Shown here: positions 8,175 through 34,511 of the stretch, piece after piece
Layout: every line of letters starts with the position of its first letter
How positions within the stretch are numbered: the first letter of the stretch is position 1
Assembly (NCBI GenBank): GCA_019347945.1
Contig: JAHWKK010000030.1
Location: 1 to 34,511 of the forward strand
Source of the DNA: Acidobacteriota bacterium
GTDB taxonomy: Bacteria > Acidobacteriota > Thermoanaerobaculia > Gp7-AA8 > JAHWKK01
Direction: 5' to 3'
DNA: 34,511 bases
Position numbers and translations under genes: made by a program
Notes under the pieces: generated by a model
Told to the model about the DNA's origin: nothing
Databases searched by the model: none
What the model saw: the letters and a program-made list of their open reading frames with translations, nothing else

Positions 8175-8221
8175 GTTTTCACCAACATCGGCTCAGCTGG
8201 ATGCATTTCGCCACCCAGATG

Positions 8222-8323
8222 CCGGTTGCCAGTGGCCGGTTGCCGGTTGCCGGTTGCCGGTTGCCGGTTGCCGGTTGCCGGTTGCCGGTTGCCGGTTGCC
8301 GGTTGCCGGTTGCCGGTTGCCGG
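8222..8323. repeat. Heptamer tandem array (CCGGTTG, 14 units)
   Basis: One CCGGTTG unit, one degenerate unit (CCAGTGG), twelve perfect CCGGTTG units, then four further bases. It lies 47 bp upstream of the S55 protease start. With the inverted degenerate array at 8787-8849 it brackets a palindrome cluster. The frames crossing it read as repetitive QPATGNR-type peptides on one strand, an artefact of the repeat rather than a gene. Confidence 0.95.
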
Positions 8324-8434
8324 CGAGGGATGGTCTCGCATCCTCCAGGAAGTGTCGAACCCACATCGCGGGCGTAAGAACCAACGCCAAGCGCTAACCG
8401 TTGCAGGCTCGCGCAAAACAGATATATCGACGAA

Positions 8435-8716
8435 GCCGCCAAAGGCGGCGACAGTTCTTAGCCCCCGGCTTCAGCCGGGGGACAGGGGCTCGTTCGCAAA
8501 ATCAGTGTCGAGCCCGCTTCAGCGGGCGACAGAGCCAATGCCAAGGCTGATCGATGCAAGCTTAAGCTAGACGAACTTTGTCGGCCACAGATCTCAGCTT
8601 CGAGCGTTGTCGACGTTCTGTCGCCCGCTCAAGCGGGCTCCGCATTCTCTCTTGGAAAGCCTAACCATCCCCCGGCTGAAGCCGGGGGCTAAGCGCTTTC
8701 GCCCGCTGGCGCGGGC
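8435..8716. repeat. Cluster of six perfect palindromes (REP-like)
   Basis: Six hairpin-forming sequences in 280 bp: GCCGCC-AAA-GGCGGC (8435), CCCCCGGCT-TC-AGCCGGGGG (8462), GCCCGCT-TC-AGCGGGC (8512), GCCCGCT-CAA-GCGGGC (8623), CCCCCGGCT-GA-AGCCGGGGG (8669) and GCCCGC-TGGC-GCGGGC (8701). Two stem families (CCCCCGGCT and GCCCGCT) alternate. No T-run follows, so classical terminators are unlikely. I found no credible gene between 8175 and 8851; this cluster and the two heptamer arrays account for most of that gap. Confidence 0.9.
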
Positions 8717-8786
8717 TAATCAAAGGTGAGCGTTCTCTCCGAGATTCACCCTAGAAGACGGGCCGACCTCATGCCGAGCCCGCATC

Positions 8787-8849
8787 GCCAACTGGCAACC
8801 GACTACCGCCAACCGGCAACCGACGACCGGCAACCGGCCACCGGTTGCC
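8787..8849. repeat. Degenerate heptamer array, inverted relative to 8222-8323
   Basis: Nine 7-bp units. Three read GGCAACC and the others (GCCAACT, GACTACC, GCCAACC, GACGACC, GGCCACC, GGTTGCC) differ from it by one or more bases. GGCAACC is the reverse complement of GGTTGCC, a phase of the upstream array, so the two arrays face each other. It ends 2 bp from the stop of the PBP4-type peptidase gene. Confidence 0.8.
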
Positions 8850-8851
8850 GC

Positions 8852-10303
8852 CTACCCCCGGTCGACGATCGTCTCGAGGATCTGGTTCTGCAGGTTGTAG
8901 ACGTGCCCCGCCGCAGTCCGGTAGTCATTGAAGAGCATCGAGAAGGCGTAGACCCTTCCGCTGCCTCCCTGCACGTAACCGCTCAGGCCGATGGCTCCTT
9001 CGAGATACCCCGTCTTGGCGAAGACCGCTCCCCTGTACGGCGCCCGGTTCATCCTCCGTCGCATACGGGTCGACTGTTCCCCCGAGTAAGGCATCGACGC
9101 AAGAAACTCGGCTCGTGCCGGGCTGTTCCACATGTGCTGAAGCAGGGTGACGAACGCCGTAGCCGAGGCACGGTTGTCGGCCGACATACCGGAGCCGTCG
9201 GACTGGTGGAACTGGTTGGCAGCGACTCCCAGCTCGTTGACCATCCAGTCAGTCACGATCCTCGAGCCCTCCCCCCACGATCCTTCGGTTCCCTTCTCCG
9301 CTCCGATCGTCTTCAGAAGCTGCTCGGCGTAGTGGTTCTGACTCTGCTTGTTGATGACAAAAAGCGCGACGGCGAGCGGTGTGTCGAATTGCCCGATCTT
9401 CGTCCAACCGGCGTCCTCAACCGTTCGAGCGAGAATCGTCTGCCCGGAGATCGAGATGTTCCGCGCCCTCAGCGCCGTCTCCATCACGTTTCCGAAGTAT
9501 TGAACCGGATACATGACCGGCACGGGGATCGAAGTCGGACCGTAGCCGGGATGGGCGTTTCCCTTCACGATGATCGTATTGGTTCCCTGTTTCCGTCCCA
9601 CGAAGGCGCCGCGCCCGCGTCGTGTCGTCACGCAGGTATTCTCGATCGTGACGTAATCATTCGGAGGCTCGAGCTCGACGCGCGCGCGGGCTCCCGGTGA
9701 GGTCGGATGAACCCGGACGATGACGGTGCCCTCCTGGATCGCAGGCGAAGAAATGGGAGCTTCGTACCAGTAGACGAGCTGATCTTTCGGCCAGCTCGGG
9801 TGCACCCATTCCGAATCGAAGTAACCGTACTCGACGATCAGATTTCCATCGATCGCGTCGATCCCCGCCCGCTTGAGCATGATCACGACCTCGTCGAAGA
9901 GCCGGCCTCCATCGTCATCGTTGAAGCGGGTTCCGAGCGTCGGATCACCGCTCCCCACGATCCGCAGATCGCCCTCGAGGACGCCGTTGCGGACTTCTCC
10001 TCTCGTCCAGAGCGTCGTGGCGAACTGAAAGTTCCGTCCGAGCTTCTCCATTGCGGTGGCCGTCGTGAAGAGCTTCATGTTCGAGGCAGGCACGATCGAA
10101 TTGTCCGGCGTATGAGCGGCGACGACGCGCCCGGTCTCGAGATCGATGATCTTGATGCTGCTCTTCGCTCTGGTCGCCAGATCACCGTTGACGAGCGGTC
10201 GCAGCGCGTTCTCCAGGGTCTGGCTGCTCCCTGCAGGAGCGAGCCCGATGAGCGCCAGGATCGCGACGAGGATCAGGAACGGGCGACGCGAAAAGTGGGT
10301 CAT
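8852..10303 (-). CDS. dacB: D-alanyl-D-alanine carboxypeptidase/endopeptidase, PBP4 type (peptidase S13)
   Basis: A 483-residue periplasmic penicillin-binding enzyme that trims or cleaves peptidoglycan cross-links. N-terminal hydrophobic export segment (residues 9-27). All three active-site motifs of the serine PBP fold are present: SNMK at 74-77 (nucleophile serine and lysine), SQN at 321-323 inside NKQSQNHYAEQLL, and KTG at 430-432. DGSGMSADN (369-377) is also typical of family S13. The large insert between the first two motifs (about 100-300) is the usual S13 extra domain, and the length is normal for PBP4. It starts 43 bp after the metallo-hydrolase gene on the same strand, so the two probably form an operon. 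ATG start; no obvious Shine-Dalgarno. Confidence 0.93.
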   Translation of the reverse strand: MTHFSRRPFLILVAILALIGLAPAGSSQTLENALRPLVNGDLATRAKSSIKIIDLETGRVVAAHTPDNSIVPASNMKLFTTATAMEKLGRNFQFATTLWTRGEVRNGVLEGDLRIVGSGDPTLGTRFNDDDGGRLFDEVVIMLKRAGIDAIDGNLIVEYGYFDSEWVHPSWPKDQLVYWYEAPISSPAIQEGTVIVRVHPTSPGARARVELEPPNDYVTIENTCVTTRRGRGAFVGRKQGTNTIIVKGNAHPGYGPTSIPVPVMYPVQYFGNVMETALRARNISISGQTILARTVEDAGWTKIGQFDTPLAVALFVINKQSQNHYAEQLLKTIGAEKGTEGSWGEGSRIVTDWMVNELGVAANQFHQSDGSGMSADNRASATAFVTLLQHMWNSPARAEFLASMPYSGEQSTRMRRRMNRAPYRGAVFAKTGYLEGAIGLSGYVQGGSGRVYAFSMLFNDYRTAAGHVYNLQNQILETIVDRG

Positions 10304-11615: not shown

Positions 11616-12854
11616 TTGGATAAGCGTCGCGTCGTGATCACCGGAATCGGAATGGTCTCCCCTCTGGCCGTCGGCACCGAGGAGACGTGGAAAGGTTTGC
11701 TCGCCGGGACACCGGGAGTGGGCCCGATCACCCGATTCGACGCGTCGGAGTACGGCTGCAGAATCGCCGGCGAGGTGCGGGGATTCGAGCCGCTCGACTG
11801 GCTCGATCGGAAGGACGTGAAGAAGTCCGATACGTTCATCCACTACGCGATCGCTGCCGCCCAGATGGCGTGGGACGACTCCGGAATCGAGGGAAAGATC
11901 GAGCCGACCCGGCTCGGCACGATCATCGGCTCCGGAATCGGCGGCCTTCCGCTCATCGAAACGACGCACAAAATCCTTCTCGAGCGTGGCCCGTCACGGA
12001 TCACGCCGTTCTTCATTCCCGGTCTCATCGTCAATCTCGCAGCCGGTCAGGTGTCGATCCGCTTCAATGCGAAAGGCCCGAACTCAGCGCCGTGTACCGC
12101 GTGCGCCACCGGAGCACATGCGACCGGTGACGCGATGCGACTGATTCAGCGAGGCGATGCAGACGCCATCTTTGCCGGCGGCGCCGAAGCGGTCATCGCG
12201 CCGCTCTCGGTCGGTGGATTCGCGGCGATGAAAGCGCTCTCGACCCGCAACGATGATCCGGCCACCGCCTCCCGACCGTGGGATGCGGGCCGTGACGGTT
12301 TCGTCATGGGCGAAGGTGCCGGGATTCTCATGCTCGAAGAACGGGAGCACGCCCTCGCACGCGGCGCGAGAATCTACAGCGAGCTGACCGGATACGGCAT
12401 GTCGAGCGACGCCTACCACATCACCTCCCCCTGCGCGGACGGCGAGGGCTCGGCGCGCGTGATGGAGGTCACCCTCGAGGACGCCGGGTTGAAGCCGGAG
12501 GACATCGACTACATCAACGCCCACGGAACGTCGACGCCTGTCGGTGACAAGGCCGAGACCGACGCGGTCAAGCGAGTCTTCGGCGAGCACGCACGGAAGC
12601 TCGCGATGAGCTCGACCAAATCGATGACCGGCCACCTCCTCGGTGCCGCCGGAGGTCTCGAAGCCGCGATCACCGCGCTGGCCATCTACCACGGGATCAT
12701 GCCGCCGACGATCAACTACGAGACACCCGATCCGGAGTGCGACCTCGATTATGTTCCGAACGAAGCGCGGCCGGCAGAGATCCGCCACGCGATGTCGAAC
12801 TCGTTCGGCTTCGGTGGCACGAACGCATCCCTCGTCTTCTCGAAACACGAGTAA
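11616..12854 (+). CDS. fabF: 3-oxoacyl-ACP synthase II (beta-ketoacyl-ACP synthase)
   Basis: A 412-residue condensing enzyme that elongates acyl-ACP with malonyl-ACP. The catalytic triad sits at the same numbers as in E. coli FabF: Cys163 (in [11 protein letters not shown]), His303 (in [11 protein letters not shown]) and His340 (in GHLLGAAGG). [15 protein letters not shown] near the C-terminus is the usual end motif. The start is TTG, chosen because TGAGGA lies about 10 nt upstream and the N-terminus [13 protein letters not shown] matches the family. Partner of acpP just upstream. The stop codon lies 1 bp before a perfect inverted-repeat element. Confidence 0.97.
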
Positions 12855-12855
12855 A

Positions 12856-12949
12856 ACGGGGTCGGGTCTGAACTTGGAACTTAACTCCGAAATCGTTCAA
12901 AACAAGCTGAAGTTTCAGGGTTAAGTTCCAAGTTCAGACCCGACCCCGT
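12856..12949. repeat. Palindromic mobile-type element, copy 1
   Basis: A perfect 30-bp inverted repeat (arms 12856-12885 and 12920-12949) around a 34-bp spacer. The arm contains GGGTCGGGTCTGAACTTGG. The same arm sequence occurs at 22173-22274, but the spacers of the two copies are unrelated. The element fills nearly the whole gap between the fabF stop (12854) and the next start (12956). The layout resembles paired REP sequences or a small non-autonomous element; no transposase is in the window. Confidence 0.9.
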
Positions 12950-21483: not shown

Positions 21484-22038
21484 TTACTCCTCCTCACTCC
21501 CCGCATCGGCTTTCGATGCGGTCTCGGGCGCGGGTTCCGGCTTTGCAGCCGCCGGCTCAGGCTTCGCCGCGGCACGCTCGGGTTTCGCAGCCGCAGGCTC
21601 GGACGCGGCGGATGGCTCCTTCCGGTCGTCGGATGCGCCGCGAGCGGCCCTCCGCTCCTCGTCCCGGGTCGCTCGCGCGGCGGCTCGTTCCGCCTCGCGC
21701 TCGTCGGTGGACTTGACCGGGTACACACCCTTCTTCCGCGCGCGCTGTGTTTCGAGATCCGTCCGGACGATCATGTGACGCATGATCTTGTCCGAGTTCT
21801 TCATGCGGCGATCGAAGTCGTCGAGACTTCCCGGTGCGCCCTCGAAGACGAAGAGGTGATAGATCCCGTCGTTCTTCTTCTGAATCGGATAGGCGAGCCG
21901 GCGACGACCCCATGCGTCTTCGCTGACGGTCTTGACGCCACCGGTCTCGGCGATGCCGCGAAACTCGTCGATCGTCGCGGTTACGTCTCCCTCCTCGAGA
22001 GTCGGAGGGAGGATGAACAACACTTCGTAAGTGCCCAA
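21484..22038 (-). CDS. rpsF: 30S ribosomal protein S6 with long Ala/Pro/Lys-rich tail
   Basis: A 184-residue S6. The core (about 1-95; GTYEVLFILPPTLEEGDV; RRLAYPIQKKNDGIYHLFVF) is normal. The last 90 residues are a disordered tail containing three AAAKPE-type repeats and an acidic end. Most S6 proteins have 95-135 residues, so the tail is long. Start: TTG at 22038, chosen because AAGGAGG lies only 5 nt upstream and the product then begins at the conserved GTYE; the frame open to 22155 has no such support. First gene of the ribosomal string; a leader hairpin lies just upstream. Confidence 0.95.
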   Translation of the reverse strand: MGTYEVLFILPPTLEEGDVTATIDEFRGIAETGGVKTVSEDAWGRRRLAYPIQKKNDGIYHLFVFEGAPGSLDDFDRRMKNSDKIMRHMIVRTDLETQRARKKGVYPVKSTDEREAERAAARATRDEERRAARGASDDRKEPSAASEPAAAKPERAAAKPEPAAAKPEPAPETASKADAGSEEE

Positions 22039-22061
22039 TGAGTCCTCCTTATGGCCTTCTG

Positions 22062-22083
22062 GAGCCCCGATCGGTCGGAGCCC
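22062..22083 (-). promoter_or_regulatory. Hairpin in the rpsF leader (candidate S6:S18 autoregulatory RNA)
   Basis: In the mRNA sense GGGCUCCGA pairs with UCGGGGCUC (nine pairs including two G-U) around a CCGA loop, 13 nt upstream of AAGGAGG. S6:S18 complexes are known to bind a leader hairpin with a conserved CCG in many bacteria. CCG triplets are present here, but I cannot confirm the required bulge geometry. Confidence 0.4.
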
Positions 22084-22172
22084 AAGGAAGTAATGAATTG
22101 TGTGTCGCGAACCGGGGTGGTCCGGACAGACGACCAAACGCCGATGCACCGGCAAAATTCCGTCCAGCTCCC

Positions 22173-22274
22173 GGAGACGGGGTCGGGTCTGAACTTGGAA
22201 CTTAACTCTGGATCCGCCCTATTTTTCGCTTGATTCCGGAGTTAAGTTCCAAGTTCAGACCCGACCCCGTCTCC
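22173..22274. repeat. Palindromic mobile-type element, copy 2
   Basis: A perfect 36-bp inverted repeat (arms 22173-22208 and 22239-22274) around a 30-bp spacer. The inner 30 bp of each arm are identical to copy 1 at 12856-12949; the spacer is different. It overlaps the 3' end of mqnC, which reads through one arm as TGSGLNLELN, and lies between mqnC and rpsF. Confidence 0.92.
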
Positions 22275-23404
22275 GCCCCGGCAAGCTCGCGAACCCGATG
22301 ACCGGTTCCTTCTTCGACCCAGCCGTCGTAGAGAGTGAGCCGCTGCACCGGTTCGTAGCCGCTCTGCCTGATGAGACGCTTCATCTCTTCGGTCGTCACG
22401 TGATTCTCCGCACCCGCCGCCGCCACGACATTCTCCTCGATCATGATCGAGCCCATGTCGTTCGCTCCGAACTTCAGCGCGAGCTGGCCGATCCCGAGAC
22501 CTTGCGTCACCCACGACGACTGAATCGAGCGGATGTTGTCCATGTAGAGCCGTGCGAGTGCCTGATGCCGGAGGTACGACACGCCGTCTTCTTCCTCGAT
22601 CTCCTGCATCTCGGTGTTTTCGCGTTGAAAGGTCCACGCGATGAAAGCGGTGAATCCGCCCGTCTCATCCTGCAGGTCCCTGACCCGCCGCATGTGCTCG
22701 ATCCGGTGCTCCGGCTTTTCGCCCTGCCCATACATCATCGTCGCGGTCGTCCTGAGGCCGAGCTCGTGACCGGTTCTCATGACGTCGAGCCATCCGGCCG
22801 TCGATGCTTTCGGGTAGGAAAGGCTCGCGAGCCTGATCTCGTCGACCAGAATCTCCGCCCCTCCTCCGGGGATCGATTGCAGGCCCGCTTCGATCAGCGC
22901 CCCGATCACCTCGCGAAGCGGCTTCTTAGTCATTCTGGAAATGAAGAGGATCTCCGGCGGCGAGAACGCATGGCGATGGACCTCGGGAAACTCCTCGCGC
23001 ATCCAGCTCAGCAGATCGGTGTAGTACTCGAGCGGCAGATCCGGATGAACCCCACCCTGGAGAAGGACGCCCGTCCCGCCGAGCTCGACCGTCTCACGGA
23101 TCTTCTGCCGAAGCTCGTCTCTCGTGAGGAGATACGATTCCGGATCGCCCGGCTTGCGGTAGAACGCGCAGAAGCGGCACTTGTAGACGCAGACGTTGGT
23201 GTAGTTGATGTTCCGGTCGACGATGAAGGTGACCACCTTCGGATCGTTCAGCCGGTTGCGGACGATGTTCGCGGCCTGACCGAGCTCGAGCAGGTCGGCT
23301 TCCCGAAGCAGCGTCAACGCCTCGTCGTCGTCGATCCGTCCTCCGTCGATCGCCTTCCGGAGAATCTCGCGCGCGCGTCCCTCTGTCTTCATCAGCTCAG
23401 CCAT
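22202..23404 (-). CDS. mqnC: Cyclic dehypoxanthinyl futalosine synthase (radical SAM)
   Basis: A 400-residue enzyme of the futalosine route to menaquinone; it cyclises dehypoxanthine futalosine. The [4Fe-4S]-binding motif is CVYKCRFC (Cys72, Cys76, Cys79). IPGGGAEILVDEIR, FTAFIAWTFQRENTE and DNIRSIQSSWVTQGL distinguish MqnC from the related MqnE. Start ATG at 23404 has AGGAG 5 nt upstream and overlaps the mqnA stop by 13 bp. The last ~24 residues, from TGSGLNLELN on, come from the palindromic element, so the natural C-terminus has been replaced or extended; the catalytic core is untouched. Confidence 0.93.
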   Translation of the reverse strand: MAELMKTEGRAREILRKAIDGGRIDDDEALTLLREADLLELGQAANIVRNRLNDPKVVTFIVDRNINYTNVCVYKCRFCAFYRKPGDPESYLLTRDELRQKIRETVELGGTGVLLQGGVHPDLPLEYYTDLLSWMREEFPEVHRHAFSPPEILFISRMTKKPLREVIGALIEAGLQSIPGGGAEILVDEIRLASLSYPKASTAGWLDVMRTGHELGLRTTATMMYGQGEKPEHRIEHMRRVRDLQDETGGFTAFIAWTFQRENTEMQEIEEEDGVSYLRHQALARLYMDNIRSIQSSWVTQGLGIGQLALKFGANDMGSIMIEENVVAAAGAENHVTTEEMKRLIRQSGYEPVQRLTLYDGWVEEGTGHRVRELAGAETGSGLNLELNSGIKRKIGRIQS

Positions 23405-31009: not shown

Positions 31010-31272
31010 CGTCATTCTGAGCCCGGCGAAGCGCGGGCGAAGAATCTGGGCGGGGGTTCGTGAGTCACCACTGACAGGCACTGATCACGCTGGTTCACGA
31101 CCGCCCCCCAGATCCTTCACCGTCCTTCGGCGGTTCAGGATGAAACGACCACGAAATTGCGTGGACTTCGACCTTTTGCAGCGCTTCGCTTGGCCTGATG
31201 TCCCACCCTGCAAGGTCCCTCGCTTGCCCACCCGACCGCCCGCTCGGGACGACGTCGGTTTGAGCATGGGGT
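31010..31272 (+). repeat. Long dispersed repeat, copy B
   Basis: Plus-strand counterpart of 9-273. Begins CGTCATTCTGAGCCCGGCG and ends near GGTTTGAGCATGGGG. A third, short piece of the same family end (TTGCTCAGGATGACGTGGGT) lies at about 31331. Together these occupy much of the gene-free gap 30985-31553; nothing else is recognisable there. Confidence 0.8.
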
Positions 31273-34385: not shown

Positions 34386-34511
34386 GAAGAGTGAAGAGTG
34401 AAGAGTGAAGAGTGAAGAGTGAAGAGTGAAGAGTGAAGAGTGAAGAGTGAAGAGTGAAGAGTGAAGAGTGAAGAGTGAAGAGTGAAGAGTGAAGAGTGAA
34501 GAGTGAAGAGT
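34386..34511. repeat. Heptamer tandem array (GAAGAGT, 18 perfect copies, continues past window)
   Basis: Eighteen perfect, uninterrupted copies of GAAGAGT fill the last 126 bases up to the window edge, so the true copy number is unknown. It begins 5 bp after the rarD stop. Confidence 0.97.

Follow-up and report, generated by a model that had tools for sequence, protein, structure and literature searches.

Paired hairpins in an acidobacterial genome belong to a REPIN-like family probably mobilised in trans by a TIRYT-type transposase

Two hairpins in a stretch of 34,511 nucleotides from an Acidobacteriota bacterium (contig JAHWKK010000030.1; hereafter the window) belong to a family of about twenty very small mobile DNA elements that code for nothing, lie scattered through the genome and are probably copied by a transposase that acts on single-strand DNA and has its gene at another place in it. 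We consider it very likely that both hairpins are copies of a REPIN-like non-autonomous element that is mobilised in trans by a RAYT of group 1, the TIRYT type. Elements of this kind are already known; what is new here is the presence of two covarying half-repeats seven bases apart in the arms and an arm sequence that appears to track the helix-turn-helix (HTH) segment of the transposase. The arm family and its seven-base pattern help to show how such elements are recognised, and the arms provide concrete substrates and a testable rule (a GGGGTC end together with half-repeats that covary at a distance of seven bases) for domesticated group 1 transposases.

Copy 1 (positions 12856-12949) forms a near-perfect hairpin with 30-bp arms. 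Its left arm (12856..12885, forward strand) reads ACGGGGTCGGGTCTGAACTTGGAACTTAAC, that is, a GGGGTC end followed by the half-repeats GAACTTG GAACTT; the right arm (12920..12949, reverse strand) is the reverse complement of the left, perfectly complementary over its 30 nt, and the variable 34-nt spacer between them (12886..12919) prolongs the stem imperfectly at its ends. In copy 2, complementary arms of 36 nt (left, 22173..22208, forward; right, 22239..22274, reverse) enclose a variable spacer of 30 nt (22209..22238), and the 30-bp arm core is exactly that of copy 1, which confirms the perfect inverted arms, common to both places, that an earlier note on this DNA had reported. The hairpins fold with z-scores of -13 to -15 on either strand, none of 200 shuffles being as stable, and a single arm alone folds no better than shuffles in this test. 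The arm carries no GTAG tag, is not self-complementary and contains no internal palindrome, and it thus falls outside the definition of a REP. As the earlier note had also described, copy 1 fills the gap between a fabF-like ketoacyl synthase gene (PF00109/PF02801; 11616..12854, forward), whose TAA stop at 12852-12854 lies one base before the element, and a DinB-superfamily gene (DinB_2, PF12867; 12956..13477, forward), which starts 6 bases past it. Copy 2 adjoins an MqnC/CofH-like radical SAM gene (22202..23404, reverse), and a ribosomal protein S6-like gene (21484..22155, reverse) lies downstream.

A search of the 3.72-Mb genome with the 21-mer arm core, allowing up to three mismatches, returned 21 forward and 21 reverse matches, and the reversed pattern used as a control returned none. 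In total, 19 full elements were reconstructed genome-wide, together with fragments, one element being split across contigs C49 and C19. Over 29 bp the arms are identical in 14 left and 15 right arms of the 19 copies, two copies carry an 'AACATGG' variant in which the change is present in both arms, and the arm cores are spaced 57-58 bp apart in nearly all copies. The spacers had been described in the earlier note as unrelated; this holds loosely, in that they have diverged, but they are homologous, as 77 of the 171 spacer pairs among the 19 copies, compared in either orientation, score above the 99th percentile of shuffled controls. Many of these matches emerge only when one spacer is reversed, which fits a palindromic element that can insert either way round. 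The spacer of copy 1 is nearest to those of the copies on C20 (28/38) and C15 (26/37), and that of copy 2 to those on C14 (25/36) and C40 (24/36). The first spacer bases pair more often within a copy than across copies (for example, 13/19 against 0.47 and 12/19 against 0.40), and this excess at the inner stem indicates that the stem is kept by compensating changes, just as the perfect arms, despite spacer differences of 15-40%, indicate that the arms are under constraint. The exact 21-mer core had no match in the public genome collection and none in 100 relatives; it is therefore specific to this family, and a looser end pattern was used for relatives. Contigs C19, C49 and C26 end inside element copies (L053:1-60, L054:4926-5029 and L050:5198-5266), so that the hairpin breaks the assembly; an overlap between C49 and C19 makes it probable that these two are neighbours in the genome.

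The copies lie predominantly where genes end. Among the 18 copies whose flanks were examined with the ORF table, 17 are faced by a neighbouring 3' end and the remaining one (C8) has genes on its two sides that run in the same direction; no copy sits between divergent genes. In about six copies the adjoining reading frame is ended by the arm's own TGA or TAA, or by a stop deeper in the element. Copy 2 is the clearest case: the MqnC-like frame runs through arm and spacer, so that the gene takes its last approximately 22 codons and its stop codon from the element. The MqnC-like orthologues in two genomes of the same taxonomic order (G017 and G003), which are 77-78% identical, end close to the place of insertion and are free of the element, which provides one orthologous empty site; the 22.2-kb copy has taken the place of the native stop of the gene. 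The earlier note had named conservation of the spacer at orthologous loci as evidence against its reading, and at the one comparable locus the whole element is absent. A corresponding empty site was not obtained for copy 1, for which no DinB orthologue was found in the taxonomic order (best identity 33%). Neither a polymorphic copy nor an intermediate of transposition was observed. The bases just outside the arms are purine-rich, with GAG at positions -4 to -2 in 10 of 38 flanks against a background of 2.6% (P 4e-8). The mqnC-rpsF gap, which holds copy 2 in this genome, contains in two relatives unrelated long palindromes of seven-base units (L341:1332-1449 and L342:1364-1455).

The earlier note had looked to many intergenic copies and a REP-associated Y1 transposase gene for support, and both are present, with eight Y1_Tnp genes in the genome. 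One of these, L033 on contig C31, encodes an intact RAYT of 318 aa with an HYH motif. It matches the PF01797 profile with an E-value of 9e-12 and NF047646, the NCBIfam REP-associated transposase, with an E-value of 3.5e-20 and 72.4 bits, below the 80-bit cut-off; the HTH matches at residues 265-301 are weak and sub-threshold. Its Y1_Tnp domain, HUH motif and C-terminal HTH place it in RAYT group 1 (subclass 2.1). L034 is a frameshifted relative of L033, and each of the two is framed by inverted repeats of about 33-37 nt. These terminal repeats are colinear with the arm of the element, aligning without gaps as GGGGTC, 17 bases and TTAAC (or TTACC), with 17-19 of 30 positions identical (P 0.002-0.02); beyond GGGGTC, the repeats of L033, L034 and L080 of a relative give 11-14 gap-free matches over 24 positions (P 0.0004-0.02), and the repeat of L305 in G002 ends in the same AACTTAAC as the arm. 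No RAYT gene of the assembly was found to carry the exact arm as its repeats, those of L033 and L034 being the closest, and we thus assign the element to the L033 RAYT lineage, which would have served it, rather than to a specific gene. The exact partner may have been lost, may be unassembled or may have diverged. A Y1 gene on C5 with a single arm 0.3 kb away was rejected as the partner, since it is ringed by a different, Acido-Lenti-1-like repeat, and the nearby arm is probably coincidental. Another Y1 gene of this genome has a different repeat, GGGCCAGACCTTCGTTATTCGG, on its flanks, several times in direct orientation and once inverted (L035:377-663 and 1968-1992).

The association between arms and RAYTs recurs in related genomes. 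When the class was searched with no more than the 12 outermost bases of each arm, analogous hairpins came to light in nine further genomes, and the inner arm is peculiar to each of these. Y1 genes are present in all nine, and in seven of them (G004, G033, G042, G060, G072, G121 and G147, the match being partial in G121 and on one side only in G042) a RAYT is bordered by the arm of its own genome; in these matching relatives the local RAYT terminal repeats are identical or nearly identical to the hairpin arms. Across the phylum, GGGGTC-type repeats stand on both sides of 48 of the 73 RAYT loci examined, and hairpins with this end pattern are present in many other phyla, in at least 119 stretches. 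The situation that the earlier note had weighed against its own reading, just two copies and no relatives elsewhere, is thus not the one encountered, either in this genome or outside it.

Although the arm sequences differ between genomes, many inner arms contain two similar half-repeats seven bases apart, as in GAACTTG GAACTT, GTGATCC GTGATC, CCACTTG CCACTT and TGACATT TGACATT. Matching at a lag of seven exceeds the same-column control both for the arms of hairpins (z 4.5) and for the terminal repeats of RAYTs (z 4.7); a smaller list, chosen by eye and with the arm of this element among its entries, gave a z of 5.4. A tandem-array origin of the arm heptamer was rejected: in samples of 220-400 kb from four genomes there were no arrays of GAACTTG or of the arm heptamers of relatives, and other heptamer arrays dominate in two of the genomes. 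When the share of the catalytic domain was removed, the distance between inner arms remained correlated with the distance between HTH segments among 47 RAYTs (partial r 0.29, P < 0.0005), and also in two thinned sets (0.18, P 0.0015; 0.23, P 0.001). The reverse partial correlation, with the Y1 catalytic domain, was weak (0.05-0.16), with some signal there too, and a first HTH-arm correlation over 19 loci was strong but was lost or became marginal once thinned. These comparisons are suggestive of an arm sequence that tracks the HTH more than the catalytic domain, with shared ancestry only partly controlled.

From these observations, a mechanism can be proposed. The inverted arms would be terminal repeats recognised by a RAYT of group 1 (subclass 2.1, 'TIRYT'), a protein with a Y1 domain and a C-terminal HTH. 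The catalytic domain presumably acts, with cleavage, at the conserved GGGGTC end on the single-stranded hairpin during replication, and the half-repeats of the inner arm (GAACTTG GAACTT) are presumably read as a sequence-specific site, for which the HTH domain is the best candidate reader. The spacer would serve as the loop, the sequence of which may drift while its length may not, and copies would persist mainly at the 3' ends of genes, where insertion would be tolerated. Whether this can be extended to group 1 RAYTs broadly is a matter on which we lean slightly towards doubt: they may mobilise or bind genome-specific hairpin families that combine a fixed GGGGTCAGGTCT-like end for the HUH domain with a rapidly evolving pair of half-repeats that are spaced by one heptad and recognised by the C-terminal HTH; the specificities of element and transposase would then co-evolve genome by genome.

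The 3'-end placement of nearly all examined copies could also reflect a host function, with the hairpins, whatever their origin, selected at each locus as RNA 3'-end structures for attenuation, mRNA stabilisation or insulation. Near-invariant arms beside spacers that have diverged by 15-40% go beyond the neutral decay of dead copies, and the different hairpins in the mqnC-rpsF gap of relatives, together with the 3'-end bias, leave some room for such a function. However, purifying selection against harmful insertions predicts the same placement, the arms keep their exact sequence and not pairing alone, and this sequence resembles the terminal repeats of RAYTs. Neither window copy has a U-tract; intrinsic terminators, defined by a GC-rich hairpin and a T-run, were called at neither copy 1 nor copy 2. 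On this evidence we regard selection for a host function as unlikely, though not negligibly so.

Inverted operators for a DNA-binding protein of the host that has no part in transposition would likewise be in keeping with the strict sequence and spacing of the arms and with the half-repeats that they contain. Such a regulon is very improbable, because the sites lie at gene ends and none between divergent genes, the arm and the RAYT repeats have their GGGGTC end and register in common, and the RAYTs of relatives bear the arms of their own genomes. A short non-coding element with inverted repeats might equally be a MITE of the usual sort, one that is moved by a DDE transposase and has terminal inverted repeats next to a target-site duplication. 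We give this reading hardly any credence: the flanking duplications for which the earlier note had suggested looking, at three or more bases, are found beside the arms of none of the 19 copies, and the partner genes with matching terminal repeats encode Y1/HUH transposases rather than DDE enzymes.

REPINs, which have RAYTs as partners, pair two REPs in inverted orientation around a spacer of diverse sequence (Bertels and Rainey 2011, PMC3116915; PMC8049555). Similar to these, the present element has two inverted conserved arms that form a hairpin at fixed spacing, is extragenic, is probably tied to RAYT genes and has a diverse spacer with compensatory changes. In contrast to REPINs, its arms are neither REP palindromes nor tagged by GTAG, its approximately 20 copies compare with hundreds of REP doublets in SBW25, and its RAYT type is group 1 and not group 2 or 3. 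Y1 genes flanked by terminal inverted repeats (TIRs) with a GGGGWSAS motif, together with small TIR families, were described by Di Nocera et al. 2013 (PMC3733652, in the portions drawn on here). The same portions report Y1-gene terminal repeats that start with GGGG, dimers in the genome and a well-defined acidobacterial transposase group among these TIRtrons/TIRYT, which the present element largely resembles; GGGGTCGG in its arm matches GGGGWSAS at 7 of 8 positions, and GGGGTCAC in the repeats of L034 and L305 matches it fully. Unlike for the TIRYT repeats in those portions, no exact partner gene was found for the element in the assembly, and seven-base half-repeats and genome-by-genome matching are not mentioned where they describe TIRYT repeats. 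In a later survey (PMC6006769), most TIR-flanked Y1 genes belonged to subclass 2.1, or RAYT group 1, the type to which the L033 protein corresponds in its Y1 HUH domain and C-terminal HTH. Its authors saw no REP-like sequences close to genes of subclass 2.1 and did not settle what the HTH targets, whereas we observed hairpin families with matching arms in several genomes. We therefore group the element with the TIRYT repeats and take it to behave as a REPIN does. Of the earlier note's proposal of paired REP-type units mobilised in trans, or of a non-autonomous element, the general idea is supported, the arms are of the TIR type rather than canonical REPs, and mobility in trans is what we infer.

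Other repeats were observed in the window and the genome. The Rfam family RF01687, 'Acido-Lenti-1 RNA', has 76 matches in the genome, 29 of them over the gathering score, often as inverted pairs 200-400 bp apart; one pair lies in the window (8434-8481, reverse, and 8669-8707, forward). Copies border two IS200-like Y1 genes (L031 and L032), and Acido-Lenti-1 may be a REP-like repeat of these transposases rather than an sRNA; it was absent at similar Y1 genes of two relatives. Arrays of seven-base units (CCCTGAT, TGCCGGT, CAACCGG and GAAGAGT) occupy 298-330, 8220-8323, 8789-8844 and 34386-34511 of the window. A period of seven is shared by 24 of the 27 short exact tandem runs counted over a sample of 400 kb, a bias also seen in G004 and in neither G060 nor G042. 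Inverted heptamer arrays at 8201-8337 and 8779-8856 enclose the Acido-Lenti-1 pair in a nested palindrome of about 650 bp. Finally, about 30.7 kb of the window is enclosed by an inverted repeat of about 250 bp (21-273 and 31010-31264), the pieces of which are 81-98% complementary.
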